This document shows, piece by piece, positions 5,565 to 62,750 of a DNA stretch of 64,000 nt. How positions within the stretch are numbered: the first letter of the stretch is position 1; each line of letters opens with the position of its first letter. The notes under the pieces were generated by a model. That model did no database searches. It had not been told where the DNA came from and saw nothing but the letters and a program-made list of their open reading frames with translations. The stretch comes from Cryphonectria parasitica EP155 (taxonomy: Eukaryota; Ascomycota; Sordariomycetes; Diaporthales; Cryphonectriaceae), in NCBI RefSeq assembly GCF_011745365.1, contig NW_024468910.1, positions 772,068 through 836,067 of the forward strand. The letters are read 5' to 3'. The position numbers were made by a program, and so were the translations under genes.

Positions 5565-6019
5565 TGTAATGAGCACTGCAGCAATCCGAAGATTTCTAAG
5601 TATATGAAGGGGTTTATGCTAATAAGAGTGGTATCAAAATGTTAAGTTTTTAATACGGAATCGTACAAGTTTTGGTGAGCGATGCAAGTGTTTACTGCCT
5701 TTAAAGCTATCAGAGTACGAGAGTAATCTGATATTTAGATTAACAACTGAAGAGCTATGCACTGAATCTATCTAATGGTAATAAATGTGTTCTTATATAT
5801 TCAGCTCTTCAGTATGAATATGTTGAATAGCAACATATTCAAGTTATTCTGCTAGCTTTGAATAGCACTTATTCAGAGCTATTCTTTCTGATTAATCCTG
5901 CTCATAACCCTAACCCTGGGTTATGTAATCAATGCTTTGTCAGAACGTTGGATTCCTAACACCTAGTCCTTGTTACTCGTGACCTGTTTCGCGACCTGCA
6001 TGTTGAATGAGTCATAACA
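5565..6019 (-). repeat. Solo LTR-A inserted in LTR-B
   Basis: A 455-base LTR (TGTAATGAG...TCATAACA as written on the + strand) flanked by a perfect 5-base target duplication CAAGA (5560-5564 and 6020-6024). No internal region remains, so it is the product of LTR-LTR recombination. It is the youngest event in this nest, because it interrupts B1, which interrupts A1. Confidence 0.95.
5822..5885 (-). promoter_or_regulatory. Variable U3 module of solo LTR-A
   Basis: A segment next to the core promoter that does not match the other LTR-A copies. It holds three copies of GAATAGC or its complement (5825, 5860, 5878) and a GAATATG/CATATTC inverted pair. The conserved LTR sequence resumes on both sides. 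Confidence 0.6.
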
Positions 6020-6289
6020 CAAGAGTTTTCATATATATAAAGAATATTATTCACTTTTCAAATTCTTTAGCTATAAGCAAAGAAAAAGCATTCTTTCTCT
6101 TCTTTTCAATTTTAAACCCTTTGAACAGATTTAAAACAGGTTTTTCACTCTGTTCTTGCGCTTGTATAGCCTTAGTTTGCTGTTCTCATCTGTACAAGCA
6201 TGCTTGAGTTGCACGAGCTCTTGCTTATTGCTTCGGCAGCTGTTTGTTCCTTTTTCTTTCGAGGGCGACGGCGCTCTAGTTCTGATTCA

Positions 6290-8706
6290 CTAGATCTAAA
6301 AGAAGCTTATAATCTGATTAGAATAAAGAAAGAAGAAGAATAGAAAACTGCTTTCAGAATATGCTACGAATACTATGAATATTTGATTATACTCTTTAGT
6401 TTAACAAATATCTCAGCTTTATTCTAAGAAATGATTAATTATATTCTATGCAAGTACTTGAATTAGTTTGTTATAGCATATCTTAATAATATTCTTATTT
6501 ATTCTTGAATACTGAAGAAATATAAGAAATATGTGGAAACAGTATTGCAAATGCTTTAAGATGCGAAACTTCTTATAAAACCTGTAAAGAGTTACTTTTA
6601 TATACAAAAAATTAACTACTTCGGATTTATAATCGAACTAGGATATATTAAGCTATAGAAAGATAAGATAGAAGCTATTAGAAACTAGCTAATTTCTAAG
6701 AATATTAGGAATATTAAATCTTTTCTCAAATATATTAACTTTTATAAGCAGTTTATTAAGAACTATAATCAGATTGCATATTCTCTTATAAATCTTATTA
6801 AAAAGAAGCAGCTTTTCAAATAAACTTTCAAAGCATAAGAAGCTTTCAATAAGATCATTAAGCATATCATCTTAGAGCTAATTCTGCATAAAGCAAACTT
6901 TTATAAACCTTTTAAAATTGAAATCAATATATTAGAATATACACTTGGAGAATAACTTAATTAGCAAAATAATTAAAAGTATTTAAGAATTATAAGCAAC
7001 TTTTCAAGAAAGTTAAGCAGCTTAGAAGTTAATTATAAAATTCTAGATTAGAAGCTTATAGCAATAATGAAAGCTTTTAAGAAATAGCAATATTATTTCA
7101 TTAGCATACAATACTCGATTATAGTTTACTTGGATTATAAGAATCTAATTATATTTATAAAAATCAAAGTTTTGAATAAGCAATAAATTAAATAAGCAGA
7201 ATTCCTCTTATAATTTAATTTCAAGATTATATATTACAAGAGCTTAGAAAATGAATAAGTAGATGCTCTTAGCAGAAAACTAAACTATTGAAATATAGAT
7301 TTCTTAGATATACAGAATATCTTTGCTTAAGATAAATCAGAGAATCTTGTTAATATATATAGAAAGCTGAATACTGCTTTCAGAATTGAATCTTCAGAAA
7401 AGGATTCAGAATTAATAACTTCAGATAAATAAAATAACTATATTAAGAATATATACAGCATATCAGCATATAAATACTAGAGAGTTAGAGCAATCTATAA
7501 ATATATTAGAAAATACTGAAATCTATTAAGCTTTAAGAAAAGAATTAAGAACATTCTATAATAATGCAATAGCTGCAAGAAGAATAAAGCAGAAAAATAT
7601 AAGCTTTATAAACTATTATATTTCTTACTAATACTTATAATTATTTAGCAATTCATTAGTTTAAACTTTATTATTAAGCTATTTCTCTTATAAGAATTCT
7701 TAACTAAAATATAATATAATAGCATTTTAATAATAATTTGCAAACTAAGCAAGTATGCTTATTTTCTTTCTTATAAGAAAAGCAGTATAGCAGAAGAACT
7801 TATATATATATTTCTCAGAATAATTATTACTAATTATAATATGCTAGAAGAAATAATCTCTAATAGAAATAGAAAGTTTAATTCAAAATTTTAAACTTCG
7901 CTTATAAAATAGCTTAAAATATATTACAGAATATCTATAGCATTTCATTTATAAACAGATAAATAGATAGAAAGAATAAATTAAATTATTGAATAATATC
8001 TTCAATATTATATTAATCAGAAATAGAATAATTAAATTAATCTATTATTCTTTATACAGTTCGCTTATAATAGCGCAGATATAAGTATAATAAAGAAATT
8101 ATTATTCTTTATATTCTATAGATATAACTTAATAGCTTATTACAAAATATTGCTAGAAGCAAATACAGAAGCTGCAAATAAAAGAATTAAGAAGATTAAG
8201 AAAATTTAGAAGAAATTCTAGTTAGAATTATAATTCATTCAGAAACGAATAATACAGTATGCAAACTTCAAAAGGATTAAGAAACTAATCCTATAGAAGG
8301 GAAATAAGATCTATCTACTTTGAAAAAACATTAAAATAATAAGATCTAGCAGCAAGCTTAATTATAAGAAGTTAGAATTATTCAAGATTTTATAACAGAT
8401 CTTTCCAATTAATTATAAGCTAGTATTATTCTATAGAATAAGAATATATTCAGTTTTTCATATCTTATTATTGAAACTAGCAGTATAAGAAATACTAATG
8501 AATAATATAGCAGAAGTGAAAAACAATAAATCAGAGTATAAGATAGAAAAGATTCTTAAGTATAGAAGTATAAACAGCATAAGAGAATATTTTATTAAAT
8601 AAAAAGATTATCTAGCAAGCGAAAATTCGTAGGAATTATAGAAAAACATTAAAAATGCTTAGGAAAAAGTAGCTGAGTATTGGAAAAGGAAAAAAACTAG
8701 CACTTA
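6290..8706 (+). pseudogene. A1 pol remnant: RT, RNase H, integrase, chromodomain
   Basis: Reverse transcriptase starts at the palm (a frame with KEAYNLIRIK). The catalytic Y-x-D-D region reads Y-L-N-N-I-L at about 6478-6500, so both Asp codons have become Asn by RIP-type change. RNase H (about 6890-7260) and integrase with its C-terminal region (about 7440-8400) follow. The C-terminal chromodomain (about 8515-8690) would tether the preintegration complex to modified histone tails, defining the chromovirus class. The stop codon is TAG at 8704-8706. There are many internal stops, so it is inactive. Confidence 0.85.
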
Positions 8707-9321
8707 GAACAGTTGCTTTATTCCAAACTGAAACTCAGAAGCTTCAGAAATCTCACTCTCCAGAAAATCCAACCAGTTTATCACAGAATTCCCTAAGTTT
8801 ACGAAATTTCAATCAAAATCCTCAAAAGAAGAATTCTTAGCTATAATAGCAGATTCCTTAGCTATTACAGCTTGCACTTTAGCAGCAATATGCACTCTCT
8901 CAGCTTTAGCCTTCTCAGCTTTCTTCTTCTTAAGCTCTTCAAGATTCTTAAAATCTTAGCAGATAGCTTGAAACATTCTTTCATGCTATATCTTCTTTTG
9001 TTAATACAATCTAGTTAACTTTAGCTCTAACTCTTCTATTTCATCTTCTAGTTTTTGATATTGAATAGAAGTAAGAAGAAGTTTAGCAGCATTCATTAGT
9101 TTCAGAACATTATACTTAGCGCGATTCTGAGAAATATATTCTGAATAACAGAACAAATTATAAGAAGAAATAATATACAACTTCAAACTTTAATCATTAC
9201 AATAGAAACAGGAATATATATTAAGATTATTTGAAAGAATAGACTAAAGAAGAAAGCTTTTCTGCTTCTTTTTGTTAGAATGAGAATTCGAGGATTTCAG
9301 TTTCGCAACTTTATTATTTAT
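8703..9321 (-). pseudogene. Antisense Zn-cluster/coiled-coil frame of A1
   Basis: The decayed counterpart of the A4 frame at 53750-54442, in the same position tail-to-tail with pol; its stop overlaps the pol stop. Cluster cysteines are partly replaced by Tyr through TGT/TGC-to-TAT/TAC changes: one C-x2-C pair survives, later positions read Tyr in register with A2. The coiled-coil part is open at 9001-9186 (heptads around a Q-K-L-E-D-E-I-E-E-L-E-L-K-L stretch). The conserved tail reads W-L-D-F-L-E-S-E-I-S-E-A-S. The start codon has become ATA (9319-9321). Confidence 0.75.
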
Positions 9322-9413
9322 TTCAATTAGAAAGGCAAAATCATGTATACAGAAGACTTATTAGAATACTTATAAAGAATCGTTGAAAATAATAACTAAT
9401 AGAAAAGAGATGA

Positions 9414-9859
9414 TATTATAACTTATTCAATATACAGATCACGAAACAGATTATAAGTAATAAAAACTAGATATTAAAAACTCAATATTCTAATAAAAAC
9501 ATGAATTATATAACTTAGGATTAGAATTGTAAAGAAGGAAGGATTGCTGAACTTGCTACTGATTCCAGCGAGCTTTACATCTTGAATCGCTAAGCTTGCT
9601 AGCAATTCTCGCAATTCATACTAAAGAGCTGAATATATAATCATACATTCATTATCATTAGATAGATTCAGTATATAGCTCTTCAGTTATTAATCTAAGT
9701 ATCAGATTATTCTCTATTCTAATAGCTCTAAAAGCAGTAAATACTTACATAGTTACTTAGTTGTATTTCTGTATTCAAAGCTTATACTTAGCACTGCTTT
9801 TGTTAATATAAACTCTTTGTATACTTTGGAATCTTCGGATTACTGCAGTGCTTATTACA
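9414..9859 (+). repeat. LTR-A (3' LTR of A1)
   Basis: 446 bases, TATTATAAC (from TGTTATAAC) to CTTATTACA. Contains the ACTGAAGAGCT-type inverted arms around the TATA region and a central variable block (about 9540-9625) unlike the blocks of other copies, in which I see GCTAGC-centred pairs but no clear iterated motif. Confidence 0.92.
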
Positions 9860-11708: not shown

Positions 11709-12170
11709 TATTATAACTCATTCAATATACAGATTACGAAACAAGTTACGAGCAACAAGGATCAGATGTCATGATTCAACATCGGATAACTAACGAGGAT
11801 TACGTAACCAAGGGTTAGGGTTACAGGTTCTATCAGGCAGGGATGAACCGTGGGAACCGCTAGCGGTTCCGTCGATGTAACCTTGAACCGCGGCTGTTGC
11901 CGCCGACTCTTACAGTTTATACTGAAGAGCTGGATATATATATAAGAACACATTCATTACTATTAGATAAACTCAGTATATAGCTCTTCAGTTGTTAATC
12001 TAAGTATTCAATCTTCTATACTGAATAGCTTCAAAAGCAGTGAATACTTGCATTACTTATCAGAATTTGTATAGTTTCATATTAAGAACTTAATACTTTA
12101 ATACTGCTCTTGTTAGCATAAACTCCTTTATATACTTAGAAATCTTTGGATTGCTGCAATGCTTATTACA
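11709..12170 (+). repeat. LTR-A (5' LTR of A2)
   Basis: 462 bases, TATTATAAC...CTTATTACA. Includes the telomere-like GGGTTAGGGTTA (11813-11824), a GC-rich variable module, TATATATAAG upstream of the transcription start region, and the conserved GAAGAGCT/AGCTCTTCAG arms. Confidence 0.92.
11841..11920 (+). promoter_or_regulatory. Variable U3 module of A2 5' LTR, CCG/CGG rich
   Basis: Contains four GAACCG hexamers (11845, 11854, inverted 11864, 11885), the perfect 18-base palindrome GGAACCGCTAGCGGTTCC (11853-11870) and a CCGCGG. CCG/CGG triplets in inverted or everted arrangement are the known half-sites of Zn2Cys6 regulators, so this is the most suggestive target of the antisense protein family. 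Binding is inferred. Confidence 0.55.
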
Positions 12171-12229
12171 TTTTAATAACTCTTATTCAAGAACAGTTTA
12201 GTATTACCTCTTGAGCAATATAGAATACG

Positions 12230-13330
12230 ATAGCTTCTTCAGAAACCTCTTCGTTCTTGCATGCCCCTACTCAGAAAGAACTGATCAACTAGATGTATCA
12301 GCTTATTCAGCATATTCAGAATCTGCGCGAACAACAGCAGGCTCAGAGCGCTACTATTGCTAACTAACAAGCTCAGCTAGCTTAGCAGGCTCAGCAGGTG
12401 CAGTTTATCTTTGCAATCATCAGTAGCGCTGAAAAAGTATACAAGATGAACAAGCTCGCTATATATAATAGCAATCAGAAAATGCTGCATGAATTCCTTA
12501 TCCACTGCAGAGCATATTTCCTGTATTATAAAGCTCAGTTTACTAAGAAGTCTGAGAAAATTATTCTTGCAGGAACTCGTTTCGAAAAAAATGCTCTTAT
12601 TTAATATAAGCTTTCTCTATACAATCACTTGAAGTATTAGAATAATCTCAATACGTATATCCAGAATATCAAGATTATATTTAATTCTTTTGAAAGCTTT
12701 GAGAAAGTTCTTAAGGAAATCTTTAATAATTTTAATAAAGAATATATTACAGCTTAGCAACTTATAAATCTTAAACAGACTAAATCAGCTTTAGCTTATA
12801 CAGTTAGATTCAAGCAGCTCTTAGCAAGACTTCTGTAGAAAAATAAGAATCTTATAAAGCATTATTATAAGAAACTTAAGAATAATATTAAGAATAAAAT
12901 CTCTAAGCAGAATTAGCTAGAGAATTTTGCAACATTCTCTAACTAAGCTATCCGCATTAATAACTATCTATATAAATAATAAATAAAGAAATCTAAGAAG
13001 AGAGAAAGCTAAACTTGGAAATTTCCGGCTAATATAAGCAAGAAACTCCAAAATAAGAATAGCAATCGATATAGTAATATAGCTTAGAGCAGCACTATGC
13101 ATGCTGATTTCATAAAACTCAATGCAGCTAATAAGCAGTATAGCAAGAGAAATAGCATCACTTGCTACAATTGCAACAAACAGAAATATATAGCATATAA
13201 TTACTATTAATCTCGAAAGAATAAATAGCAATCTATTTAGAAAGAATGCTAAATAAATATTGCCTGCTAATAGAAATCTAATCAACTAAGCAAAAACATT
13301 CCCTTAAAGCAAGTATTGAACTCTATTAAT
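12230..13330 (+). pseudogene. A2 gag remnant
   Basis: The structural protein of the virus-like particle. Homologous to the open gag start of A7 (63060-63437): a Gln/Ala-rich N-terminal coiled coil, then a capsid-like segment. The start codon has become ATA (12230-12232). A CCHC zinc knuckle lies at 13163-13204 (C-Y-N-C-N-K-Q-K-Y...), with His and the last Cys changed to Tyr. An open stretch of 68 codons remains at 12398-12604. Confidence 0.8.
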
Positions 13331-16300
13331 TACAGAAGTCTTAGCTGAACATTCTGCTATAATAACAACTGCTTAATATATCTCTCGAGTAAGGAAGGTT
13401 TAGAATAGTTCTCTCAGAAACCTAGGCGCTGCAGGCAGATAGCAATAGCAGGGCGAGCATATACGCTCAGCATAACCACAAGTAGTAGCAACTCGAACTG
13501 CTTCAATGTTACAGAATGCAGCATTTAAGCGTTGAAGGAAGAACTTAGCAATAGCACTCTTCATCATTTCTCATTGCTTATGCTGAGCACTATAACAAGA
13601 GATATGAATAAGAAGTGATATTCTCTTAGCTACTGATACAAGTATCTGAACAACACTGAGAATGCTTCTCAGATGATAGAAGAATTAGGCTAGAATGAAC
13701 GATCTAGCGATTCATCAAAATTTTCTAATAAACTTAAGAAGCTTACGGAAAGATTTCCTTTCAGCATTGAATGGAATAAGGAAACAATATAGATTAAGTA
13801 TCTTGTTTATGAAATAGAGCTAGAGAAGCTCTTTATCTACATCTCTTTGCAAAACATCAAAATGCAATAAAACAAGGATTTCTAAATCAGCTCATTCTAC
13901 AATCTACACTATAAACTAGCATAAATCTTATGCATTTATTATAGCTGCAAAACGCATTTCTCAGATAAGATGCAATACGAATAATTCCTTATTAGAGAAC
14001 TAGAGCAAATTCTTCAAGCTATTGAAGAATAAGAATTCCGCTTCAGAAAAGTTCTTAATAAGCAGTATTATAATGCATATATCGAACTACTAAACAACTA
14101 TTCCATACAATATATAAATAAGAAAATAGAATAATAGCAGTACAAGATAGCGCTTTATATAATTCATATCAATGATAAGATTTGCAACTAGCATTAATAG
14201 AGGAAAGATTAGAAATAATAATAATATAAGCAAAAGCAAGCTAAGAAGCTTGCTTAGGAAGCAGCGAAGCAAGCTCAGAAGGATAAGCAGTTCTCAATAA
14301 ATTCAAAAGAACAGAATCGCCTGTAAAGAAACTGCAGACAATCAAACCAGAATAATTCCTATATAAAGCTATCAGAGCAAACTATACTTATATCAAGTTC
14401 AGTATATATATTCAAGAATATAAGTACAGCGCACTATTAAACAGTAGCACTCAGAGAAACTTCATATTCCCATATATTATCAATCAAGCATAATTATAAT
14501 GAAGATAGAAGAAATGCTTATATACTCTCAGTATTATAAAAGAATAATCTATTGCATACAATTAAGAAGTAATCAATAAAAAAACTAATTATCTACTTAT
14601 CTTAATCCAAGAATGTATAATCAGAGCTTCTTTTGATATTATGAATATAGTATAGCATAAGCTGATTATAAAACTTCTATAGCTTAAAAAGTATAATTCT
14701 CGAATTGATTAGATTACTAGTTAGATCTCGTAAGAACAAGCTATACTCAGGGAAATAGTTGCAATCAATAGCGCAGGATTGAAGCCAGTTATTGAAGAGC
14801 ACTCAAGAAAAGAAGCTTTAAACAACTTTATATATATCTTCAAACTAGCAAGGCTAGCAGCTTAAGAAGAAGAATCTAGTAGCAAGCAAACTCAAATAGT
14901 GCTAGAGCACTAATAGATTAGCAAAATAATAGAAGCGAAACTCTTAGCAAGTTAGTTCGCTCCAAAGCAATAAGAAAAAGCTTCAGAATGTGAATTGTAA
15001 ATCTATACAGAAAAAACCTCGAAACCAAGCTCTCAAGCGCTCAGTTCAGCTCAGAGCGAATATTCAAAGCTCTTAAAAATGTTACCAAAAACAACAAATA
15101 AAAAGAAGCATGCTCAATAGTACCTACTATTCCTCCAGATAGCAGAAACAGCGAATAAATCAGAACCAATACTTGCAAATATATTACAAGAATATTATAA
15201 GTTTAAGAAACTATTTCAGAAAGAATTGAATACAGAATTGCTAGAATACAATTCATATAACTACAAGATTCTACTATAAGAAGAAAAACAGCTTAAGTTC
15301 TTCTTCATCTATATACTAGATATAGCATAATTAGAAGTACTTAGAAAGTATTTCAATAAAAATCTCAAGAAAGAATATATACAATTATTACAATTATTAG
15401 CAGAATATCTCATTCTATTTATATTCAAGAAAAACAGTAAGCTTAAGCTATATATTAATTATAAGCAACTTAATAATATTATAATCAATAATTAATATTT
15501 ATTACTACTTATTAAGAAATTATAAGATAGATTGCAAGAAGTATAGTAGTTTATAGTTCTAAATCTGAAAGAAGCTTATAATCTGATTAGAATAAAAGAA
15601 AAAGAGAAATGGAAAACTGCTTTCAGAATACGTTACAAATACTACGAATATTTGATTATGCTCTTTAGTTTAACAAATATTCCAGCTTCATTTCAAGAAA
15701 TAATCAATTATATTCTATACAAATATCTGAATTAGTTCATTATTGCATATCTTAATAATATTCTTATTTTCTTTTGAATATTGAAAGAATATAAAAAATA
15801 TATAGAGATAGTATTGCAAATACTTTAAGATGCAAAACTCCTTATAAAACCTGCTAAAAGTTACTTTTATATACAAAAGATTAATTATTTCGAATTTACA
15901 ATTAAGCTAGAATATATTAAGCTATAGAAAGATAAAATAAAAGCTATTAAAAACTAGCTAATTTCTAAGAATATTAGAAATATTAGATCTTTTCTCGAAT
16001 ATATTAACTTCTATAAGCAGTTCATCAGAAATTATAGCCGAATTACATACTCTCTTACAAATCTTATCAAAAAGAATTAATTCTTTAAATAAATCTTCAA
16101 AGCATAAGAAGCCTTTAATAAGATTATTAAGCATATTACTTTAGAGCTAATTCTGTATAAAGCAAATCTCTACAAATCTTTTAAAATTGAAACCAATGCA
16201 TCGAAATATGCACTCGGAGAATAACTTAATCAGTAAGATGATTAAGAGCATTTAAGAATTATAAGCAACTTTTCGAAGAAGTTGAATAGCTCAGAAATCA

Positions 16301-17976
16301 ACTATAAAATCCCTAATCAGAAGCTCATAGTAATAGTAAAAGCTTTCAAAGAATAGCAATACTATCTTATTAGTGCATAGCATTCAATTATAATTTACTC
16401 AGATTACAAGAATCTAACTACATTTATAATAATTAAGATCTTGAATAAATAATAAGTTAGATAAGCAGAATTCCTCTTACAATTTAACTTTAAGATTATA
16501 TATTACAAAAGCTTAGAAAATAAACAAGCAGATGCTCTTAGCAGATAATCGAACTATCGAAATACAGACTTCTCAAATATATAGAATATCTTTGCTTAGA
16601 ACAAGTTGGAAAATCTCGTTAATATATATAAAGAGCTAAATGCTATCTTCAGAATTGAACCTTCGGAGAAGAATTCAGAATCAATAACTCCAGATGAACA
16701 AAACAACTATATTAAGAATATATATGATATATCAGCATATAAATACTAGAGAATTAGAGCAATCTATAAATATATCAAAAAATACTAAAACTTATTAAGC
16801 TTTAGAAAAAGAATTAAGAACATTCTATAATAATACAATAGCTGCAAAAAGAATAAAGCAGAAAAATACAAGCTTTACAAACTATTGCACTTCTTACTAA
16901 TACTTATAACTATTTAGCAATTTATTAGTTTAAATTTTATTATTAAGCTACTTTTCTTATAAGAACTCTTAATTAAAGTGCAATATAATAATATTCTAGT
17001 AATAGTTTGCAAACTAAGCAAATATACTTACTTTCTCTCTTATAAGAAAAGCAGTATAGCAGAGAAACTTGTATATACATTTCTCAGAACGATTATTGCT
17101 AACTATAGCATATCAGAAGAAATAATCTCTAATAGAAATAGAAAGTTTAATTTAAAGTTTTGAACTTTGCTTATAAAACAACTCGGAATATATTACAAAA
17201 TATTTATAGCATTTTACTTGCAAATAGATAAGCAAACAGAAAGAATAAACTAAATTATTAAACAATATCTTTAATACTATATTAATCAGAAATAGAATAA
17301 CTGAGTTAATCTATTGCTTCTTATACAATTCGCTTATAATAGTGCAGATATAAGCATAATAAAGAAATTATTATTCTTTATACTCTATAAATATAATTCA
17401 ACAGCTTATTACAAAATACTGCTAGAAGCAGATATAGAAGCTGCAGAAAAAAGAATTAAGAAAATTAAGAAAGTTCAGAAGAAACTCCAATCAGAATTAC
17501 AATTCATTCAGAAACGAATAATACAGTATGCGAATTCCAAAAGAATTGAGAAACTAGTTCTACAGAAGAGAGATAAGATTTACCTACTTCAAAAAAACAT
17601 TAAAACAACTAGATCTAGCAACAAACTCGATTATAAGAAGCTGGAATCATTCAAAATCTTGCAACAGATTTCCCTAGTTAATTACAAGTTAGCATTATCT
17701 TATAGAATGAGAATATATTCGGTTTTCTATATCTTACTGCTGGAGCTAGCAGCATAGAAAATACTAACGGATAATATAGCAGAAGTGGAAAACAACGAAC
17801 TAGAATATGAGATAGAAAAGATTCTCAAGCACAGAAGCATAAACAGTACAAGAAAATACCTTATCAAATGAAAGGATTACTTAGCAAGCGAAAATTCTTG
17901 GGAATCACAGAAAAACGTTAAGAATGCTTCAGAAAAGGTAGCTGAATATTAGAAAAAGAAAGAAACCAGCACCTAG
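13331..17976 (+). pseudogene. A2 linker and pol remnant
   Basis: After the knuckle comes a linker of about 1.1 kb that I do not recognise, rich in Gln/Lys and with frame conservation in A3. An aspartic protease motif follows at about 14428-14470 (L-L-N-S-S-T-Q-x-N-F-I, catalytic Asp changed to Asn). Then reverse transcriptase (about 15420-16170), RNase H (16180-16560), integrase (16740-17560; frame open at 16978-17163 and 17314-17757) and a chromodomain (about 17790-17940). The stop is TAG at 17974-17976. The integrase-to-chromodomain stretch is the best preserved. Several RIP stops remain. Confidence 0.85.
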
Positions 17977-17981
17977 AATGA

Positions 17982-18593
17982 TTACTCTATCCCGAACCAA
18001 GACTCAGAAGCCTCGGAAATCTCACTCTCCAGAAAGCTCAACCAATCCACTACAGAACTCCCCAAATCCATGGAGTTTCAGTTGAAATCTTCAAAAAGAG
18101 AATCCTCAGCTACAACAGCAGATTCCTCAACCACCACAGCTTGCACTTCAGCAGCAACACGCACCCTCTCAGCCTCAACTTCCTCAGCCTTCATACAATT
18201 CAATTCTTCCATGCAAGCAATACTACGATGCAGAGCACGCTTCATCTTCTCAGATCACATCCGCTTCTATTAGTACAGACGGAAAAGCTCAATCTCCCTC
18301 TTCTTAATCTCATTCTCCAACTTTCGATATTAGATAGCAATATTGCAAAGCTCCTCGAAAGAAGAGCTTATAACATCGTACTTGGAGCAGCCCAATTGAA
18401 TGCATTCAATACAACAAGAAGAGTCTCCAGAGAATACCTTGCAGAACCCAAAATCACGCTCCTCACAATAGGAACAGATAAGCATCTTGATAAAATTTTC
18501 CAAAAAGCGAGAAACCAAGAAGTTTTGATCTTGGATACTTTTTGGAACGGAAGAAGATTTGCGAATACAGGATTTGTTGATTCTGTTCAACAT
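17982..18593 (-). pseudogene. Antisense Zn-cluster/coiled-coil frame of A2
   Basis: Starts at ATG 18591-18593 and stops at 17982-17984, 5 bases past the pol stop. The Cys cluster is C-x2-C-x7-C-x9-C-x2-C-x7-Y, the last position being Cys in A3/A4. Spacing differs by one residue at three places from A3/A4. No intron is needed here: the frame runs from the cluster into a Lys/Glu heptad region, broken by one TAA at 18327-18329. The conserved tail reads V-V-D-W-L-S-F-L-E-S-E-I-S-E-A-S. I infer zinc binding and dimerisation; function unknown. Confidence 0.78.
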
Positions 18594-18685
18594 CTTAATC
18601 AGGAAAGCAAGATTAAGCATATGGAGAACTTGCTAGAGTACTTACAAAAGATCGTTGAGAACAACAACTGATAGGAAGAAGATGA

Positions 18686-19131
18686 TGTTATAACTCATCC
18701 AACATGCAGGTCACAGAACAGGCCCCACCAACCAGAGAACCAGGTATTACGGCTCAACGTCGGATACCAAGCAAGATTACGAAATCAGGGTTAGGATTGC
18801 TAGCGCAACTATGTTAACTATGGATATAATCAACATATTTGGAGAAATGACTATGAGGAATTGGAACATAGTTAGGATAGTCAGAACTGAAGAGCCGGAT
18901 ATATAAGAACACGTTCATTACTATTAGATGGATTCAGGAAATAGCTCTTCAGTTATCAATCTAAGTATTCAGTCTTACATACTGAGTAGCCCCAAAGGCA
19001 GTGAACACTTGCATCGCTTATTAAGACTTGTACGGTTCCGTATTCAAGAACTTGATACTTTGATACCGCTCTTGTTAGCATAAACCCTTCGTGTACTTAG
19101 GAATCTTCGGATTGCTGCAGTGCTCATTACA
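18686..19131 (+). repeat. LTR-A (3' LTR of A2)
   Basis: 446 bases, TGTTATAAC...CATTACA, preceded by a weakened purine tract (GATAGGAAGAAGATGA). Its variable module (about 18798-18886) is of the ACTATG type shared with A7 and unlike the 5' LTR of the same element. Confidence 0.92.
18798..18886 (+). promoter_or_regulatory. Variable U3 module of A2 3' LTR (ACTATG type)
   Basis: ACTATG/CATAGT copies in both orientations, matching the A7 module at 62675-62750. Lies just upstream of the GGATATATAAG TATA box. Confidence 0.6.
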
Positions 19132-23600: not shown

Positions 23601-24772
23601 TATTATCAGCAATAGAATATTCAGTAAGCTAATAAAATAGCTGCTGCTTTTGAATAAGCTATACAATTCTCTCTTCAAGATTAAGCCTAGCATGAATTCA
23701 GTATAAGCTTTTATAATATTCATATTTCTCTTATAATTCACAATAAATAAAGCTGAGAATGAATTTGCTTAATAAATATTAATATTTAATTAAAACAAAT
23801 TTAAAATATACTCAACTTATACTTTGTTAGATGCTGCATATCTATAGATTCTATTGCTTTAATTATATCTTTGAGAATATTTCATAGTAATCTTGTTAGA
23901 GGAGATAAGTAGTGCATATGCTAGCTATATACTCGAAGAAAATAAAAAGGATATTGAGCAAAATTAGAAAAAATATAAAAATCAAATCAATTTTTACATT
24001 TATAATGCAAGATAATCCCAAGCTCTTGAAAATAATTATATTCTATATTCTTAATATATACTTGGAATAGAAATACTTTATATAAAGTATATATATATTA
24101 TATATTTTTCTGCGCTTTATTAAATTCCTAATCTAAGTATATATCTCATTTAGTATTTAAATACTAGATTAATAGATATTTTTCAAATATGAGATATTTA
24201 TATGCTTAGTATATGCTCTAACTGGGAATGCTGTATGCTAAGGCTTAGTATTACATGAATGTATACAATTAATAAAGAATATCTAAAATCAGTAGATTAG
24301 CTTATGCTTTGTATAGATATAATATACATTTACTTCATTCTTAGAAAAAATACAAATTCGTTTAGTCTGATAGTATTCCTTGCTTGATTGCATCTTATAG
24401 AGCTTTGAAAGAAAGGCTGTCTTAGATGTATGGAAAAATCTGATAAAGAAGTTAATATAAAGCTAATTTATCTTTTAAAAGAATAAAATATACTCTTCAG
24501 TTCGCTTTTTAATTAAATCAGTTACTAAAGAATTCAATTGCTTTTATTCAGCTTATCGAAATAATTCTGAAAAAGAACCAAGCTTAGATCAATTATATTG
24601 TAATGAGCACTGCAGCAATCCGAAGATTCCTAAGTACACGAAGGGTTTATGCTAACAAGAGCGGTATCAAAGTGTCAAGTCCTTAAATACGGAACCGTAC
24701 AAGTAAGCGATGCAAGTGTTCACTGCCTTTGGGGCTATCAGAGTAGAGAGTAATCTGATACTTAGATTGACA

Positions 24773-24840
24773 ACTGAAGAGCTATCTGCTGAATCTATCT
24801 AATGGTAATGAACGTTTCCTTATATATCCAGCTCTTCAGT
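24773..24840 (-). promoter_or_regulatory. LTR-A core promoter with 11-base inverted arms
   Basis: ACTGAAGAGCT (24773-24783) and AGCTCTTCAGT (24830-24840) form a perfect 11-base inverted repeat around the TATATAAG box (complement of 24819-24826). The same arrangement is present in the 5' LTR. The hairpin could act in DNA or at the RNA 5' end; role inferred. Confidence 0.7.
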
Positions 24841-24945
24841 ATGGCTCACTGTCTGGCAGCGTCCCATGGATCACCACGGTGATCCGGGTGAGCCTGGTGA
24901 GCCGTGCTCCCAGTGCTCCCGGTGATCCATCCCTGCACTCTTTCC
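24841..24945 (-). promoter_or_regulatory. Variable U3 module of A3 LTRs (GGTGAKCC type)
   Basis: Five copies of GGTGA(T/G)CC or complement starting at 24868, 24878, 24887, 24896 and 24921, spaced 9-10 bases for the first four. The first two form the palindrome GGATCACCACGGTGATCC. The same block is in the partner LTR (about 31893-31995). It lies immediately upstream of the TATA box on the sense strand. Confidence 0.65.
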
Positions 24946-25141
24946 CTGGGTTATGTAATCAATGCTTTGTCAGAACGTTGGGTTCTTGATACCTGGTTCT
25001 TGTTGCTTGTGACTTGTTTCGTAATCTGCATGTTGGATGGGTTATAATACTATCCCTCTCCTATTAGTTGTTGTTCTCAACGATCTTCTGTAAGTATCCT
25101 GGCAAGTCTTCTGTATGCATGATCTTGCCTTCCTAATTGAG

Positions 25142-25847
25142 ATGTTGAATAAGGTTGAGAAATCTTTTTCCAAGAAAACTGAACAGCGTAATCGTCTTTT
25201 CCTGGCTGTTGATTAGTTCGGTTTCGAAGTTATGCTTTGCACTGCTTGCGCTTCTCGGGGCCTGGTATGCAGGATAATGGATAATGCAAAGCGTTGTTCT
25301 CAGTATATTCGTTATGCTCGTTCTTGTGATAGCTGCGGGGTTTCCGTTTCTGCTTGTAAGCTTCTTCTTTCCTTCCCTTCTACCTCCTACTGATATTCCT
25401 CTTCTTTTCTTAGTTTCGCGCATTATAGCAGAAGATAAGAGGCTGGAATCAAAGGAGCAGAAGGCGGAGGCAGAGTTGGAAGGGGCTCATCGTTAAGCGT
25501 TGGAGGTTCTTAATGAAGCTTGCATAAAGATCTCAGAGTCCGCTGCTTGTCTTGCTTGTCTGTATACTCAGTGCAGATCTCTTGCTTCCCGGGATGCTCA
25601 GATGGTGAGCGTAGGCCTTGAGTCCCTTAATGAGTTGGATGAGCAGGAGCGTTGTAAGGAGGAAGAGCGCAATCTTGCTGTATCAGTCTGCGAGGTAGTA
25701 TTGGCTGAGAGTATTTTGGCTGAGAATTCTTTGTTTGATGAATTTGATTGGAATTTCGTTAATTCTAGCAGAGCTGTAGTAGATTATTCTGGATTTCTGG
25801 AGAGTGAGATTCCTGGAGCTTCTGGGTCTAGGTTCGGAGCAAAGTGA
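25142..25847 (+). pseudogene. Antisense Zn-cluster/coiled-coil gene of A3
   Basis: Starts at ATG 25142, about 90 bases inside the 3' LTR edge, and ends TGA 25845-25847, with 5 bases between it and the pol stop. The cluster reads C33-x2-C36-x6-C43-x8-C52-x2-Y55-x6-C62, where Y55 is a TGT-to-TAT change; this is the spacing of fungal Zn2Cys6 binuclear clusters. A 58-base intron (25356-25413: GTAAGC donor, TACTGAT branch, TTCTTAG acceptor) restores frame between cluster and coiled coil. The C-terminus has F-D-W-N and V-V-D-Y-S-G-F-L-E-S-E-I. Two RIP-type stops (TAG in exon 1, TAA at 25494-25496) make it a pseudogene. Function unknown; DNA binding inferred. Confidence 0.75.
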
Positions 25848-25852
25848 TTGTC

Positions 25853-28800
25853 CTAGGTGCTGGTTTCCTTCCTTTTCCAATACTCAGCTATTCTTTCCTG
25901 AGCGTTTTTGACGTTTTCCTGTAGTTTCCATGAATTTTCGCTTGCTAAGTATTCTTTCCATTTGATAAAGTATTCCCTTGTATTATCTGTGTCTCTATAC
26001 TTAAGAATCTTCTCCACTTCGTATTCTGATTTGTTATTTTCTACTTCTGCTGTATTATTCATTAGTATTTCCTGTACTGCTGATTCCAGCAGTGAAACGT
26101 GGAAAACCGGGTATATTCTTATTCCATACAGTAATGCTAACTCGTAGTTGATTAAGGAGATCTGTTGCAAGATTTTGAATGGTTCTAACTTCTTGTAATC
26201 GAGTTTATTGCTGGATTTGATTGTTTTAATGTTTTTTCGAAGTAGGTAAGCTTTATCTCCTTTCTGTAGGATTGATCTCTCAATCCTTTTGAAGTTTGCA
26301 TACTGTATTATTTGTTCTTGAATGAATTATAATTCTAATTGGAGTTCTTTCTGAACTTTCTTAATCTTTTTAATTCTTTTATTTACAGCTTCTGTATCTG
26401 CTTCTAGCAGTACCTTATGATAAGCTATTGGATTATATCTATAGAGTGCGAAGAATAATAATTTCTTTATTATGCTTGTATCTATGCTATTATAAGCAAA
26501 CTGTATAAGAAGCAACAGATTAATCCAGTTATTCTGTTTCTGATTGATATAATATTGAAGATACTGCTTAATAACTTAATTCATTCTTTCTATCTATTCA
26601 TCTATTTGCGAATGAAATGCTATGAATATTCTGTAGTATATTCCGAGCTATTTCATAAGCAAAGTTCAAAACTTTAAGTTGAACTTTCTATCTCTATTAG
26701 AGATCACTTCTTCTAGCATGCTATAGTTAGCGATAATCATTCTAAGGAATGCATATACAAGTTCTTCTGCTATACTGCTTTCCTTATAGAGAAGAAAATA
26801 AGCATACTTGCTTAGTCTGCAAATCATTACTAGAATGCTATTATATTACATTTTAGTTAAGAGTTCTTATAAGAGAAGTAGCTTGATAATGAAGTTTAGA
26901 CTAATGAATCGCTAAACAGTCGTAAATACTAATAAGAGATACAGTAGTCTGTAAGACTTATATCTTTCTGCCTTATTCTTCTTGCAGCTATTACATTATT
27001 ATAAAATGTTCTCAATTCTTTTTCTAAAGCCTGATGGATTTCAATATCTTTTAATGCATTCATAGATTGCTCTAACTCTCTGATATTCATGTGCTAGCGC
27101 GCTGTATATATCCTTGATGTAGTTGTTTTATTCATCTGGAGTTATTGATTCTGAATTTCTTTTCAAGAGTTCGATTCTGAAAATAGCGTTCAGTTCTCTA
27201 TATGCATTAACGAGATTTTCTGATTTATTTTGGATGAAGATGTTCTATATATTCGAAGAATCTGCATCTTGATAGTCTAATCTTCTGCTGAGAGCATCTG
27301 CTTATTCATTCTCTGAGCTTTTGCAATATACAATCTTGAAATCAAACTGTAAAAGAAATTCCGCTTATCTAACTTATTGCTTATTCAAAATCTTAGTTAT
27401 TATGAATATAATCAGATTCTTATAATCCGAGTGAATTATGATCGGATACTATGCGCTAATGAGATAGTATTGCTATTCTTCGAAAGCCTTTACTATTGCT
27501 ATAAGTTCCTAATCAGAGATCTTATAATTAACTTCCGAGCTATTCAACTTCTTTAAGAAGTTGCTTATAATTCTTAGATGCTCTTGGTTATCTCGTTGAT
27601 CAAGTTATTCTCCAAGTGCATATTCTAATGCATTGATCTCAACTTCAAAGGGTTTATAAGGATTTGCTTCATACAGAATTAGCTCTGAAGTAACATGCTC
27701 GATGATTTTATCGAAAGCTTCCTATTCCTTGAAGATTTATTCGAAGAGCTGCTCTTTCTTAGTGAGATTTGTAAGAGAATATGCAATTCAGCTGTAGTTT
27801 TTGATAAACTATTTATAGAAGTTAATATATTCGAGGAAAAACCTAATATCTCTAACATTCCCAGAGATTAGCCAATTTCTAATAGCTTCTATCTTATCTT
27901 TCTGTAGCTTGATGCATTCTGGCTTAATTGTGAATTCGAGATAATCGACTTTCTATATATGAAAGTAGCTCTTCGCGGGTTCCACAAGGAGTTTTGCATT
28001 CTGAAGCATCTATAATACTGTTTCCATATATTTCTTATATTCTTCCAGCATTCGAGAGTAAATAAGAATATTATTGAGATATGCGATAATGAACTGATTC
28101 AAGTGTTTATATAGAATATAATTGATCATTTTCTGAAATAAAGCTGAAGCATTTGTTAAACTAAAGAGTATAATCAAATATTCGTAGTATTCATAGCATA
28201 TCCTGAAAGCAGTTTTCCATTCTTCTCCTTCCTTTACTCTAATCAGATTATAAGCTCCTTTTAGATCTAGAACTGTAAACTACTATACTCCTTGCAGCTT
28301 ATCTCATAATTCCTTGATGAGTAGCAACGGGTATCAGTTCTTAATTGTAATATTATTGAGTTGCTAGTAGTTAATACATAGTCTGAGCTTGCTATTCTTT
28401 TTGGATATGAACAGAATAGGATATTCTGCTGATGATTGCAATAATCATATATATTCCTTTTTGAAATTCTCATCGAAATACTCCCTGAATGCTTTTAGCT
28501 ATATCTTATCTAGTCCGTAGATTGGGAAGAATTTGGATTGTTTCCCTTCTTGTAGTAGGATCTTGTGATTGTACAAGCTGTATTCTAGCAGTTCTGTTTC
28601 CAATTCTTTCTGAAATAGTTTCTTGAACTTGTAGTATTCTCGTAGTATGTTTGCGAGTATTGGTTCTGATTCATATGCTATTTCTGCTACCTGGAGGAAC
28701 AGTAGGTACTGTTGAGCGTGCTTCTTTTCTGATAGCGTTTTCGAAAGCTTTGAGCGTTCGCTCCGAGCCGGACCGAGCATTCGAGGGCCTGGTTTTGAGG

Positions 28801-31590: not shown

Positions 31591-31650
31591 TGTGTTCCGT
31601 ATTGTTCAAGGGGGTAACACTGAACCGTTCTTGAACAAGAGTTATCAAAA

Positions 31651-32101
31651 TGTAATGAGCACTGCAGCAATCCGAAGATTCCTAAGTACACGAAGAGTTT
31701 ATGCTAACAAGAGCAGTATCAAAGTGTCAAGTCCTTAAATACGGAACCGTACAAGTAAGCGATGCAAGTGTTCACTGCCTTTGGAGCTATCAGAGTAGAG
31801 AGTAATCTGATACTTAGATTGACAACTGAAGAGCTATCTGCTGAATCTATCTAATGGTAATGAACGTTTCCTTATATATCCAGCTCTTCAGTATGGCTCA
31901 CTGTCTGGCAGCGTCCCATGGATCACCACGGTGATCCGGGTGAGCCTGGTGAGCCGTGCTCCCAGTGCTCCCGGTGATCCATCCCTGCATCCTTTCCCTG
32001 AGTTATGTAATCAATGCTTTGTCAGAACGTTGGGTTCTTGACACCTGGTCCTTGTTGCTCGTGACTTGTTTCGTAACCTGCATGTTGGATGAGTCATAAC
32101 A
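31651..32101 (-). repeat. LTR-A (5' LTR of A3)
   Basis: 451 bases, TGTAATGAG...CATAACA as written. Its core promoter arms are at 31825-31835 and 31882-31892, with the TATA box complement at 31871-31878 and the GGTGAKCC module at about 31893-31995. Confidence 0.95.
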
Positions 32102-47366: not shown

Positions 47367-47370
47367 ATGT

Positions 47371-52932: not shown

Positions 52933-52937
52933 ATAAA

Positions 52938-53597
52938 CAATGCAGATCTTTTCTATATTAGGTGCTGTATCTCCTATGAACTTTTTGTACCCTTCCCGAG
53001 TTTCTGTATCCCCCCCGAGCTTTTTGTACCCCCCCCCGAACTTTTTTGTACCCCCCATGAGCTATAAGCCCGCTTGAGACGAGAGATGAGAAGACAACCA
53101 GTATTGGTGCTATCACTGCTCTTGCTCTCGAGAAGGTCTGCTTGTCCTGTAGCTTGGCGATGGGTTGGCGGCTGGCTTTGGATGCGTACTGCGAATCGTG
53201 CAATGCAGTACGTATGGCAGAGTGATGATGATTTAGCTTGCTAGGCAAATAACGATGGATGGGGATGGTAATGGTGGAAATTCTAAAGGACACATGAAGG
53301 CAGGCAGGGAGAAGAGATTGAAGAACAATGCGGGGGTGCAGCTAATCAAAGTCAGGAGAGCAATTGCGCGATCGGAAATAAAGAGTGCGATGCAACTATG
53401 CTCCTTTTTGCTGGCGCTAATCCGTTCGTGCTATCATGCTTTAGCCTAGGATCACGCCATACTCAATGCTAATCTAGCGCTAATTTTTACCAGAAAACCC
53501 ATGATTGGTTGAAGATACTAGAGACATGTCAAACAGGCCACATGTTACTTTTCGAGATAAGGAATTTAGGCAATTCTACTGGTAGATAAGCTAGCGC
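52938..53597. other. Unassigned sequence between elements C and A4
   Basis: No similarity to A, B or C. Composition is balanced and not RIP-like. 52978-53063 holds four imperfect units of about 20 bases (GARCTTTTTGTACCCYYCCC). A 111-codon minus-strand frame (52958-53293) runs through these units but shows no domain. A short inverted repeat, CGTACTGC/GCAGTACG, lies near 53186-53212. It may be single-copy host DNA; it should join 33301 once C is removed, yet lacks the island palindrome. Confidence 0.4.
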
Positions 53598-53657
53598 CTG
53601 TCGATTCCCTGTTGGCGGAGCCTGTCCTGTGACCTGCATGTCGGATGGGTCATAACA
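53598..53657 (-). repeat. Truncated LTR-A (3' LTR of A4)
   Basis: Only the LTR start (complement TGTTATGACCCATCCGACATG) remains, next to a purine-rich tract (GATAGGAGGGAGATGA on the minus strand). The distal part, including any U3 module, is missing. Confidence 0.8.
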
Positions 53658-53749
53658 TCATCTCCCTCCTATCAGTCGTTGTCCTCAACGATCTTCTGTA
53701 AGTTTCCTGGCAAGATCTTTGTGCGTTGGATTATGCCTTCCTAATCGGG

Positions 53750-54442
53750 ATGTCGACCAGAGTCCTGAATTCCCGTATCGGCAAATCTCCTTCTTCGTCT
53801 CTTTCCAAGAAGAGCCTTGCTCGTCTTGAACGCTTCAGTTACATCGAGTCCAAGGGGTACGAAGTAATGCCGTGTTCTTCGTGTCTGGAGGAAGGGGTGG
53901 CGTGCAAGATGGTGGATGGGGTCAAGAGCCGTTCTCAGTGTACGAAACGAGGTCGTTCCTGTGATGCTGGTCGAATCCCCATGTCTTCTCGTGAGCCTTC
54001 CCTTTCCTCTTTCTTAGTTCTTGCTGATGGTACTGCCTTAGTATCTCGTATTACCGATGAGTTGGTTCGTTTGGATGGTAGGGAGGTGGAGGAGGAGGAG
54101 CGTTTGTTGGAGCGTCAGCGGGAGCTGGCGGATGCTCAGGCTCGTTTGTCCGAGTCCTTAGGTCGTTTGTCTCGTTTGAAGAAGCAGCGACGCTTCCTTC
54201 AGGAGAAGGGGATAAAATTGGTGAATGAGGGCCTGGAGGAGGAGGAGCGCGAGCGCGTGGCGGCCGAGGTGCAGGCTGTGGTTTCCGCGGAGCCCGTGGT
54301 TGTTCCTGGGGGTTTCTCTTCTGGAGGTTTTGACTGGAATTCCGTAGATGTGGGGAATGCGGTGGTGGATTGGTCGGGTTTTCTGGAGGGCGAGGTTCCC
54401 GAGGCTTCTGGGTCTCGGTCCGGGGCGGAGCGATCGTCTTAG
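53750..54442 (+). CDS. Antisense Zn2Cys6-like/coiled-coil protein of A4
   Basis: The best preserved copy: 230 codons without a stop from ATG 53750 to TAG 54440-54442, overlapping the pol stop by 2 bases. A 51-base in-frame intron (53991-54041, GTGAGC...CTGAT...CCTTAG) is supported by the A3 intron at the same point; splicing gives 213 residues. Cluster: C42-x2-C45-x6-C52-x8-R61-x2-C64-x6-C71. R61 (CGT) is Cys in A3, a change that is not RIP-type. Residues 105-178 are Glu/Arg/Leu heptads, a strong coiled coil. The tail (193-222) has F-D-W-N and V-V-D-W-S-G-F-L-E, shared by all four copies. The basic/Ser N-terminus fits a nuclear protein. Role unknown; self-regulation of the element is inferred. 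Transcription would start from the 3' LTR side. Confidence 0.78.
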   Translation: MSTRVLNSRIGKSPSSSLSKKSLARLERFSYIESKGYEVMPCSSCLEEGVACKMVDGVKSRSQCTKRGRSCDAGRIPMSSREPSLSSFLVLADGTALVSRITDELVRLDGREVEEEERLLERQRELADAQARLSESLGRLSRLKKQRRFLQEKGIKLVNEGLEEEERERVAAEVQAVVSAEPVVVPGGFSSGGFDWNSVDVGNAVVDWSGFLEGEVPEASGSRSGAERSS

Positions 54443-60179: not shown

Positions 60180-60239
60180 CGTATTCCGTATTGCTCAAGA
60201 AGATAATACTGAACTGTTCTTGAACAAGAGTTATCAAAA

Positions 60240-60725
60240 TGTAATAAGTACTGTAGCAATCTGAAGATTCCAAAGTATATAAAAGAGGTTTATGCTAATA
60301 AGAGCAGTATTAAAGTGCTAAGTTCTTGAATACGGAACCGTACAAGTCTCAGTAAGTGATGCAAGTATTCACTGCCTTTAGGGCTACTCAGTATAGAAAA
60401 CTGAATACTTAGATTAACAACTAAAGAACTATCTGAAGGAAATCTATCTAGCAGTAAGAAACGTAAACCTTCATATACTTGGTTCTTCAGTCCCTTGCTT
60501 GCTGGTGATCATCCCAGATCACCACTGATCATTCCGGATCACTACTGATCACCGAGCGCCGGTGATCACTAGTGATCGCTCTATTGTCTGATTGGTCGGA
60601 CTTTCTTGACCCTAACCCCTGATTATGTAATCATGGTTGCTTTTCCTGACGTGTCCCAGCCCCGCTGGTTCCATCAGCTGGTCCTTGTGACCTTGTCCGG
60701 TGTTGGTATTTGTTGGTTCATAACA
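60240..60725 (-). repeat. LTR-A (5' LTR of A4)
   Basis: 486 bases, the longest LTR-A here, TGTAATAAG...CATAACA as written. The extra length is in the variable module. Confidence 0.93.
60501..60580 (-). promoter_or_regulatory. Variable U3 module of A4 (GATCA, 10-base period)
   Basis: GATC starts at 60507, 60517, 60527, 60537 and 60547, exactly 10 bases apart, then at 60564 and 60574, again 10 apart. Most are TGATCAY or complement. The period matches one DNA helical turn, so sites would face the same side of the helix. Confidence 0.7.
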
Positions 60726-60730
60726 TTCAG

Positions 60731-61202: not shown

Positions 61203-61797
61203 TGTTATAACTCATTCAACATGCAGGTCACGAAACAGATCACGAGTAACAAGGACCAGGTGTTAAGAATCCAATATTCTAACAAAACATTGATTACATA
61301 ATGCAGGGTTAGGATTACAGCAGGGATGAATCACTGGATTATTAAATGATTCAGCGAGCCTGAATCACCTGAATCAGTAGTAAGCTAAGATAAGCTATAC
61401 TGAAGAGCCGAATATATAACTATACGATCATTATCATTAGATAGATTCAATATATAGCTCTTCAGTTATCAATCTAAGTATCAGATTACTCTCCTACTCT
61501 GATAGCTCCAAAAGCAGTAAACACTTGCACAGTTATCCCAGTTGTGTTTCTGTATTCAAGGCTTGTACTTAGCACTGCTCTTGTTAGCATAAACCTCTTA
61601 TATATCTTGAAATCTTCGGATTGCTGCAGTGCTCATTACATTTTGATAACTCTTGTTCAAAAACAGTTCAGTATTACTCTCTTGAGCAATACGGAATACG
61701 ATAGCTCCTCAGGGAATCTCTTCGTTCTTGCACGCTCCTACTTAGGAGGAATTAGTTAACCAGATGTATCAGCTTATCCAGCGTATCCAGAACCTGT
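61203..61797 (+). mobile_element. Family A fragment A6 (5' LTR and gag start)
   Basis: A 438-base LTR-A (61203-61640, TGTTATAAC...CATTACA) followed by the family A leader and the first gag codons, interrupted by B4 at 61797. Its variable module has four TGAATCA/TGATTCA heptamers (61327, 61347, 61361, 61370), a sequence resembling the Gcn4/AP-1 site TGASTCA. Confidence 0.88.
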
Positions 61798-62552
61798 TGA
61801 ACCAGAACTAGGGCGCCGTCGCCCTCGAAAGAAAAAGGAACAAACAGCTGCTGAAGCAATGAGCAAGGGCTCGTGCAACCCAAGCGTGCCTGTACAGATG
61901 AGAACAGCAAACTAAGGCCGCACGGGCACAAGAACAGGATGAAAAACCTGTCTTAAACCTATCCAAAGGGTTCAAAATTGAAAAGAAGAGAAAGAATGCT
62001 TCCTTGTTACTTATAGCTAAAGAATTTGAAAAGTAGGTAGTATTCTTTATATGTATGAGGACCCTTGATTCACTATACTCCACGTCTCACGGACTACCAC
62101 TCTGGCTACTATAACAGTTCTTCCCTAGCAACTTTCTTCCAAAGTTGCAACAAGTCCAATGATATGCTAGATCTGATCAGAGGGAAATGAAGTAAAGAAA
62201 TAAAGAATTTATTGCAAACTGCTAAAGGAAATACTGCAAACCAAATCATCTTCTCAATTTAATTCTTATGCTTTTTCTTATTGCTTAAGCTATTATTCAA
62301 ATCAATGCAGAAGTATTAGTATTCATCTTCAGTTTATTTATAATATGAGCATAATCTGAATAGATTCTAATGCTAATCTCTTCTCTGTTTCCATCTGCTT
62401 TCAAACTCTGCTCGAGCAGCAGTAGCAGCAGCAGTTCTCTTCTGATTCTGCATCCTTACTCGATGAATCCTTTCGCAGTTTGCTTTATACATATCTATCT
62501 TAATAATATAATCGAATTCTATTCAGTTCGGAGAACCTACTAAGAGCTTAAT
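61798..62552 (-). mobile_element. Family B fragment B4 (3' LTR and adjoining region)
   Basis: LTR-B of 319 bases (61798-62116) and 436 bases of the family B 3' internal region, including the decayed alanine/CAG run near 62420. It is inserted in A6 gag (CTGT at 61794-61797 is the likely duplication) and truncated on the right by A7. Confidence 0.88.
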
Positions 62553-62674
62553 TGTTATAACTCATTCAACATGCAGGTCACAGGATAAGGCTCCACTAAC
62601 CAAGGAACCAGGTGTTACGATCCAACGTCGGATACTAAGCAAGCTTACATAACCCGGGATAGGGTTACTAGCGC

Positions 62675-62750
62675 GACTATGTTGACTATGGATATAATCA
62701 ACATATTTGGAGAAATGACTATGAGGAATCGGAACATAGTCAGGATAGTC
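62675..62750 (+). promoter_or_regulatory. Variable U3 module of A7 (GACTATG type)
   Basis: GACTATG at 62675, 62684 and 62717, CATAGTC inverted at 62735, a partial copy at 62744. The TATATAAG box follows at 62768-62775, flanked by the conserved CTGAAGAGCT arm. Confidence 0.65.

Follow-up and report, generated by a model that had tools for sequence, protein, structure and literature searches.

Why do the copies of one retrotransposon family agree at both ends of their long terminal repeats (LTRs) and differ just before the TATA box? The question is raised by LTR-A, nine copies of which lie in a 64,000-nucleotide (nt) stretch of contig NW_024468910.1 of Cryphonectria parasitica EP155 (the window, meaning the whole stretch of DNA that was analysed). 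An earlier note on this DNA had described the LTR ends as alike and about 100 nt upstream of the TATA box as variable, and this holds across the nine window copies, which have the LTR start and the part with the TATA box, the repeated (R) region and the unique 5′ (U5) region in common. The note took the variable module, part of the unique 3′ (U3) region, for sites of a DNA-binding factor whose specificity keeps changing. We found that each module class read together with its gene pairs with its own version of an antisense gene carried by the element. The reading we favour, with a probability of roughly 60%, is that the element encodes its own transcription factor, the product of this gene, and that the module is its binding array.

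Judged by its domains, LTR-A is a chromodomain Ty3/gypsy retrotransposon, present in hundreds of copies in a genome of 43.8 Mb in 17 contigs. The copy L047 has a Ty3-type gag (Retrotrans_gag, 9.5e-14; Ty3_capsid, 8.5e-08; plus a zinc knuckle), and the integrase is followed by a chromodomain, with matches to SH3_Tf2-1 and Chromo in window copy A3 and to SH3_Tf2-1, Chromo and Integrase_p58_C in L047. Between chromodomain and 3′ LTR runs an opposite-strand frame that is open in some copies and decayed in most. Of 24 oriented elements, 23 have this antisense gene (the exception being L051), and it gave at least 150 matches genome-wide in two overlapping searches (150 and 151 matches, from the best 150 of 378 and 150 of 373 candidates); of class IVa, the LTR alone was seen. 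Its start codon lies some 100 nt short of the 3′ LTR, and its end adjoins that of pol, at a distance of 20 nt in L047; from its ATG to the TATA block we measured 273-311 nt in 52 gene/module pairs.

We compared the classes in an alignment of 22 native elements of eight classes, which leaves out A2 and L051 with their mixed LTR classes. Only transversions were compared, because repeat-induced point mutation (RIP) makes none. Module transversions amounted to 0.238 between classes versus 0.008 within them, and those of the gene, from coiled coil to start codon, to 0.255-0.259 versus 0.015-0.024. Module and gene, the only two regions with strong class differences, separated the classes with an area under the curve (AUC) of 0.97-1.00, gag-pol segments with 0.50-0.66. 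Divergence between and within classes was intermediate in the protein tail (0.104/0.051), the strip at the LTR edge (0.047/0.023) and the LTR start (0.112/0.034). Two class III rows, L059 and L079, sit on diverged backbones; the outcome was the same when the test was repeated on the 20 other elements, with gene values of 0.007 within and 0.252 between classes, and 0.0042 and 0.0050 for gag-pol, a slight excess (AUC 0.61; 0.60-0.61 overall). Among 19 eligible elements, the nearest neighbour by gene always shared the class. By gag-pol it did so for 6 of the 19, where permutation gave a mean of 3.3 (P 0.12); with L059 and L079 removed, the figure was 6 of 17 (P 0.10).

Single pairs illustrate this. 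L062 (class II) and L057 (class VII) differ by 0.14% in gag-pol. Conversely, L047 and L059 have one cassette, with transversions of 0.00 in the module and 0.00-0.01 over positions 6500-7000; elsewhere, the internal segments shown differ by 3-21%. When gene and module were clustered blindly and apart in 52 pairs, eight of 12 threshold pairs gave an adjusted Rand index of 0.85-0.92 and the remaining four one of 0.70-0.84, compared with at most 0.16 under permutation. These 52 are what remains of 55 pairs after removal of three duplicates; L019 was kept although its anchor does not read as the antisense protein. Automatic anchors gave no pair for L094, L099, L101, L102 and L114 (of the 28 loci L087-L114), nor for L047 and A4. 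In three of these the antisense gene is present and no TATA block was found behind it: behind the LTR start, L102 and L094 continue with unrelated sequence that may be an insertion; L101 runs into other DNA.

The earlier note had named variation explained by RIP alone as one outcome that would refute its reading. RIP or random decay of a single ancestral module does agree with part of the data: differences between modules of one class are mostly transitions (0.144 versus 0.016 transversions in 181 pairs), which RIP-like decay fits, and decay stops are common. Since the class differences stand when transversions only are compared, reaching 0.24 in the module, RIP is ruled out as their cause, and we give this explanation practically no weight. 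Synonymous divergence (dS) of the gene between classes is 0.93-1.56; the classes are therefore old. They look like old cassettes exchanged between backbones rather than like a motif changing in place, and to that extent the idea of a specificity that keeps changing needs revision.

The note had also given each module its own motif. The iterated motifs are real, but the modules form about a dozen recurring classes, each common to many copies rather than one per copy, and within a class a motif peculiar to it recurs in either orientation. Across many copies, the least decayed spellings, by which we named the classes by eye, are GGATAGC (class I), GGATCGCT/AGCGATCC (II), GACTATG (III), GGACCG (IVa and IVb), GGATCA (V), GGATCACC with GGTGAGCC (VI), GGATCAG (VII), TGATCAC (VIII), GGATCTGC (IX), GTCGAC/GTCGAAG (X; L099) and GGATAGATA (XI; L106). 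The features in the window, by coordinates and strand, are as follows.

5814..5918, minus strand: U3 module of class I (GGATAGC, here decayed to GAATAGC), in the solo LTR at 5565-6019
8713..9321, minus strand: antisense gene of class II, decayed
9515..9619, plus strand: U3 module of class II (GGATCGCT), decayed; LTR end near 9859
11816..11920, plus strand: U3 module of class IVb (GGACCG/GAACCG), in the A2 5′ LTR at 11709-12176
18030..18593, minus strand: A2 antisense gene, class III, decayed
18781..18885, plus strand: U3 module of class III (GACTATG), in the A2 3′ LTR at 18686-19131
24841..24945, minus strand: U3 module of class VI (GGATCACC/GGTGAGCC), in the A3 3′ LTR at 24593-25049
25142..25841, plus strand: A3 antisense gene, class VI, with a broken frame
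25853..26326, minus strand: end of A3 pol, with SH3_Tf2-1 and chromodomain
31893..31997, minus strand: U3 module of class VI, in the A3 5′ LTR at 31651-32101
53629..53657, minus strand: remnant of the A4 3′ LTR start, without a module behind it
53750..54439, plus strand: A4 antisense gene, class VIII, open, 230 codons from ATG
60490..60594, minus strand: U3 module of class VIII (TGATCAC), in the A4 5′ LTR
61294..61398, plus strand: U3 module of class V (GGATCA, here TGAATCA), in the LTR at 61203-61640 (A6)
62649..62753, plus strand: U3 module of class III, in the A7 5′ LTR at 62553-63009 (A7 extends beyond the window; its 3′ LTR is in L009)

Counted on both strands, the motif numbers given earlier were reproduced for GGTGAKCC (five in both A3 LTRs), GAACCG (four), TGAATCA (four) and GAATAGC (three), although the last three are decayed readings of GGACCG, GGATCA and GGATAGC, which are found in other copies. 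Four copies of GACTATG were confirmed in A7, but the A2 3′ LTR has one exact copy. GATCA is present in A4, where the reported seven are five forward and six reverse occurrences that overlap, because TGATCA is palindromic. A ninth window copy, at 9617, was absent from the earlier note and has the decayed GGATCGCT module.

Iteration exceeds chance genome-wide. The test covered 52 modules of 3′ LTRs, three of them from the window, with 300 dinucleotide shuffles for modules and 200 for control windows from the same elements; copies within one cluster are not independent. At p<=0.01, 41 of 52 modules and 5 of 176 controls had canonical 6-mers that recurred beyond the shuffles; at p<=0.05 the numbers were 47 and 16. 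Blind clustering of these modules gave 9-12 clusters depending on threshold; taking the least decayed copy per cluster, 10 of 11 pass p<=0.01, and that of cluster 8 (GGACCG) is not significant in 6-mer recurrence (p 0.146).

The modules of the two LTRs agree in 22 of 24 elements, namely 20 of 21 fetched elements together with A3 and A7 (distances 0.00-0.13); over 449 nt, the two LTRs of A3 align at 97%. The mismatched pairs are those of window copy A2 (11709-19131; distance 0.92, IVb/III) and L051 (0.94, III/II). Both look recombinant, because one element has 5′ and 3′ modules of different class. The antisense gene of A2 matches its 3′ LTR, not its 5′ LTR. A 229-residue sense open reading frame in A2 (17982-18671), considered as an accessory gene, was rejected: it has no family match and lies opposite the antisense gene.

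The encoded protein has a Zn2Cys6-like cluster, then a long coiled coil of variable sequence, then a conserved acidic, aromatic tail. Zn2Cys6 domains have the cysteine spacing CX2CX6C..CX2CX6-8C; better-preserved copies of most classes have CX2CX6-7C..CX2CX6-7C, and those of VII and IVb are decayed. The antisense frame is coding, with ratios of nonsynonymous to synonymous change of 0.32-0.47 in six pairs of open copies. In an AlphaFold2 model (mean predicted local distance difference test score 73, predicted template modelling score 0.39), short helices at 42-46 and 63-67 lie at the two CxxC and one long helix spans 81-163. Among 20 PDB chains returned by Foldseek (E up to 10), 17 were zinc-cluster DNA-binding domains, i.e. 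PUT3, HAP1, GAL4, PPR1, LEU3, and Pho7 and 1cld, which we take to be such domains as well; HAP1 also headed a sequence profile search of the PDB (E 0.74). The tail comes in several forms that are not strictly bound to class (L059, L079, L055, L058, L060), as if tails had been exchanged separately.

Anatomy alone cannot tell an activator from a repressor. The antisense protein could instead shut its own class via the module, so that new cassettes escape resident repression; cassette exchange on a common backbone resembles the immunity regions of temperate phages, whose repressors shut their own class. Acidic, aromatic tails, however, are typical of activators, and the conserved tail is of this kind (12 acidic and 4 basic among the last 60 residues in L065); the nearest folds of the domain are likewise mostly activators. 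We therefore judge activation the better choice on tail and fold family, and repression unlikely.

A further line of evidence is constraint on the module in one lineage. Compared with four class III copies, L079 has 1-3 transversions in 92-93 module sites, versus 16-21 in 183-186 sites of the LTR flanks and 26-28 in 241-242 of the gene; Fisher tests of module versus flanks gave p 0.0017, 0.040, 0.13 and 0.014. Classes II and IX have a gapless common layout in which 52 of 85 positions are identical and the repeated sites differ, and the two proteins are closely related. The pattern resembles a joint change of sites, although exchange is also possible.

Several observations weigh against self-recognition. 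No single fold match was significant (best E 0.28), and Pfam Zn_clus was matched by none of 10 antisense proteins at E<=1, nor by any of 4 at E<=10; no Pfam domain scored above its cut-off in these proteins, and we therefore term the domain Zn2Cys6-like. The window's own open copy, that of A4, has arginine in place of the fourth cysteine. The constraint test is the evidence of one diverged lineage, since all four comparisons share L079, and one of the four is not significant (p 0.13). Between classes, likeness of the cysteine clusters did not predict likeness of the motifs (Mantel P 0.07-0.20, or 0.09-0.20 with corrected anchoring, the higher values with L079 left out); the set comprised 15 classes, among them L047, L099 and A4 as manual additions, and excluded L019 as well as L059, which is out of frame. 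A general rule of similar cluster, similar motif was not confirmed: it is obeyed by the pairs L110/L108 (motif cosine 0.57) and L079/L047 (0.89), but not by most other close pairs. Such a null result is to be expected where specificity depends on few residues; it gives our reading no support. Finally, gene and module are so close, 273-311 nt apart, that joint inheritance alone yields much co-variation.

This last point, together with the Mantel result, favours linkage without recognition: the module would be a promoter of antisense gene and LTR that is read by host factors, and gene and module would drift together as neighbours about 300 nt apart, with no binding of the module by the protein. 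Such drift sits poorly with motifs iterated in both orientations, with a zinc-cluster-like protein, with an L079 module that was kept while its flanks and gene drifted, and with a strip between module and gene that is far less divergent than either (0.047 versus 0.25). What speaks for recognition is the iteration, the fold, the constraint seen in one lineage and the fact that the two divergent islands stand isolated; on balance, we regard linkage alone as an improbable explanation.

Host factors come into question in another way, namely if lineages had picked different host regulators, whose sites the modules would be. In many copies the module is directly preceded by a telomere-like box, GGTTAGGGTTA, at a median of 102 nt before the TATA block; 88 of 131 copies have it by a decay-tolerant pattern, 61 of them undecayed. 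It is common to several module classes, and class VI copies are without it. The box may be recognised by a host telomere-repeat factor, and since it adjoins the module, host factors may well read the LTR promoter. Different host regulators, though, would not account for an antisense gene that tracks the module class when no other internal sequence does, and as an explanation of the classes we hold this very unlikely.

From these observations we infer binding, activation, feedback and a reason for diversity, as follows. As a coiled-coil dimer, the antisense protein would use its Zn2Cys6-like cluster to bind the half-sites iterated in modules of its own class; transcription from the sense TATA box next to the module would be driven by its acidic, aromatic tail. 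Because in the 3′ LTR the distance from the module down to the ATG of the gene is 200-300 nt, the protein would probably also drive its own antisense transcript; the 3′ LTR would be a two-way promoter, and the result positive feedback of the kind known from foamy virus Tas. Gene and module would form one cassette of roughly 0.8 kb, moved between backbones by recombination; as both LTRs are copied from the 3′ U3, its two parts would be inherited jointly. A new cassette would provide a promoter neither shared with nor titrated by hundreds of dead relatives. That one family runs about a dozen mutually private activator/operator systems, swapped as cassettes, with a rarer specificity escaping titration by dead copies with old sites, is a tentative extension to which we give somewhat less than an even chance. 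Of the earlier proposal, sites for a factor of differing specificity are thus the best-supported reading, with the candidate factor probably element-encoded and switching with its module.

Other properties of the family are recorded here. The genome contains 165 matches to one exact spelling of the TATA region (reversed control, 0); of the first 100 places in contig order, 94 are on the window's contig (C2), 79 of them within 257753-2150725, a repeat-rich block containing the window. A first DNA search of the genome gave 861 first-look candidates, of which 40 were scored. CTGAAGAGC and GCTCTTCAG form an inverted repeat flanking the TATA box (e.g. window 62752-62848), both arms being intact in 107 of 132 copies. 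At window 49312-49458 and 52978-53056 lie a 75-nt tandem duplication and a C-rich array with a period of about 20.

That gene classes follow promoter classes offers a concrete, cheaply testable function for antisense genes of retrotransposons, that of a self-encoded LTR regulator. If this is true, the idea of element-made regulators co-evolving with their targets, known from VANC, would extend to retrotransposons; control cassettes would be exchanged in a eukaryotic element, a counterpart of phage immunity groups; and about a dozen natural factor/site pairs would constitute an orthogonal activator/promoter library and show how a zinc-cluster-like domain changes specificity. In the open-access literature, mostly titles and beginnings of abstracts, no report linked an antisense gene to LTR motif classes.

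Parts of the system have precedents. Gal4/Put3/Hap1-type Zn2Cys6 factors likewise have a CX2C..CX2C cluster followed by a coiled coil. They bind direct or inverted half-sites with CGG triplets, whereas LTR-A has GGATxx, GACTATG and GTCGA motifs and a domain that Pfam does not recognise. Tobacco Tnt1 also has a variable U3 with repeated regulatory motifs, but these are read by host factors. Phage immunity regions, like the LTR-A cassettes, are exchangeable regulator/operator modules; their regulators are not antisense genes of retroelements. An antisense gene, brtn, was reportedly described by Zhao et al. in Virology in 2011 for Boty-like (BcGypsy1) elements of Botrytis cinerea. Its likeness to the LTR-A gene is one of description, not sequence: a Ty3/gypsy element that carries an additional gene on the opposite strand between pol and 3′ LTR, in a host with RIP (PMC8365987); the passages that cite brtn mention neither U3 motif classes nor co-variation with the gene. 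Antisense extra frames of the plant LTR elements Grande, RIRE2, Retand and PvRetro13 agree in place and orientation; some products are nuclear, their function is given as unknown, and LTR motif partners are not mentioned in the pertinent parts of that 2020 review (PMC7264820).

Two systems come closer. Foamy virus Tas differs from the LTR-A protein in being encoded by a sense gene with an internal promoter, and we know of no set of alternative cassettes on one foamy virus backbone. VANDAL, the other, is a DNA transposon family. According to the portions of the source consulted, Tas is the virus's own DNA-binding activator, which acts first on the promoter upstream of its gene and then on U3, with species specificity reported in a reference cited there (PMC3798896). 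VANC of Arabidopsis VANDAL, as described in the corresponding parts of PMC5735166, is a sequence-specific anti-silencing protein with conserved and highly variable regions, and the repeats that it targets change together. Related VANC proteins have different short repeated targets, so that the LTR-A protein might by this parallel lift heterochromatin rather than recruit polymerase. Yet VANC targets are spread over non-coding regions; in LTR-A, an LTR retrotransposon with an antisense gene, the module is a single short array by the TATA box, a plain promoter position (the rest of the element was not searched for motifs), and anti-silencing seems distinctly improbable to us. By analogy, Tas would be the nearest working model for LTR-A and VANC/VANDAL the nearest evolutionary one. 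Antisense genes (brtn) and co-evolving factor/target pairs (VANC) were known; what appears to be new is their combination in one element.

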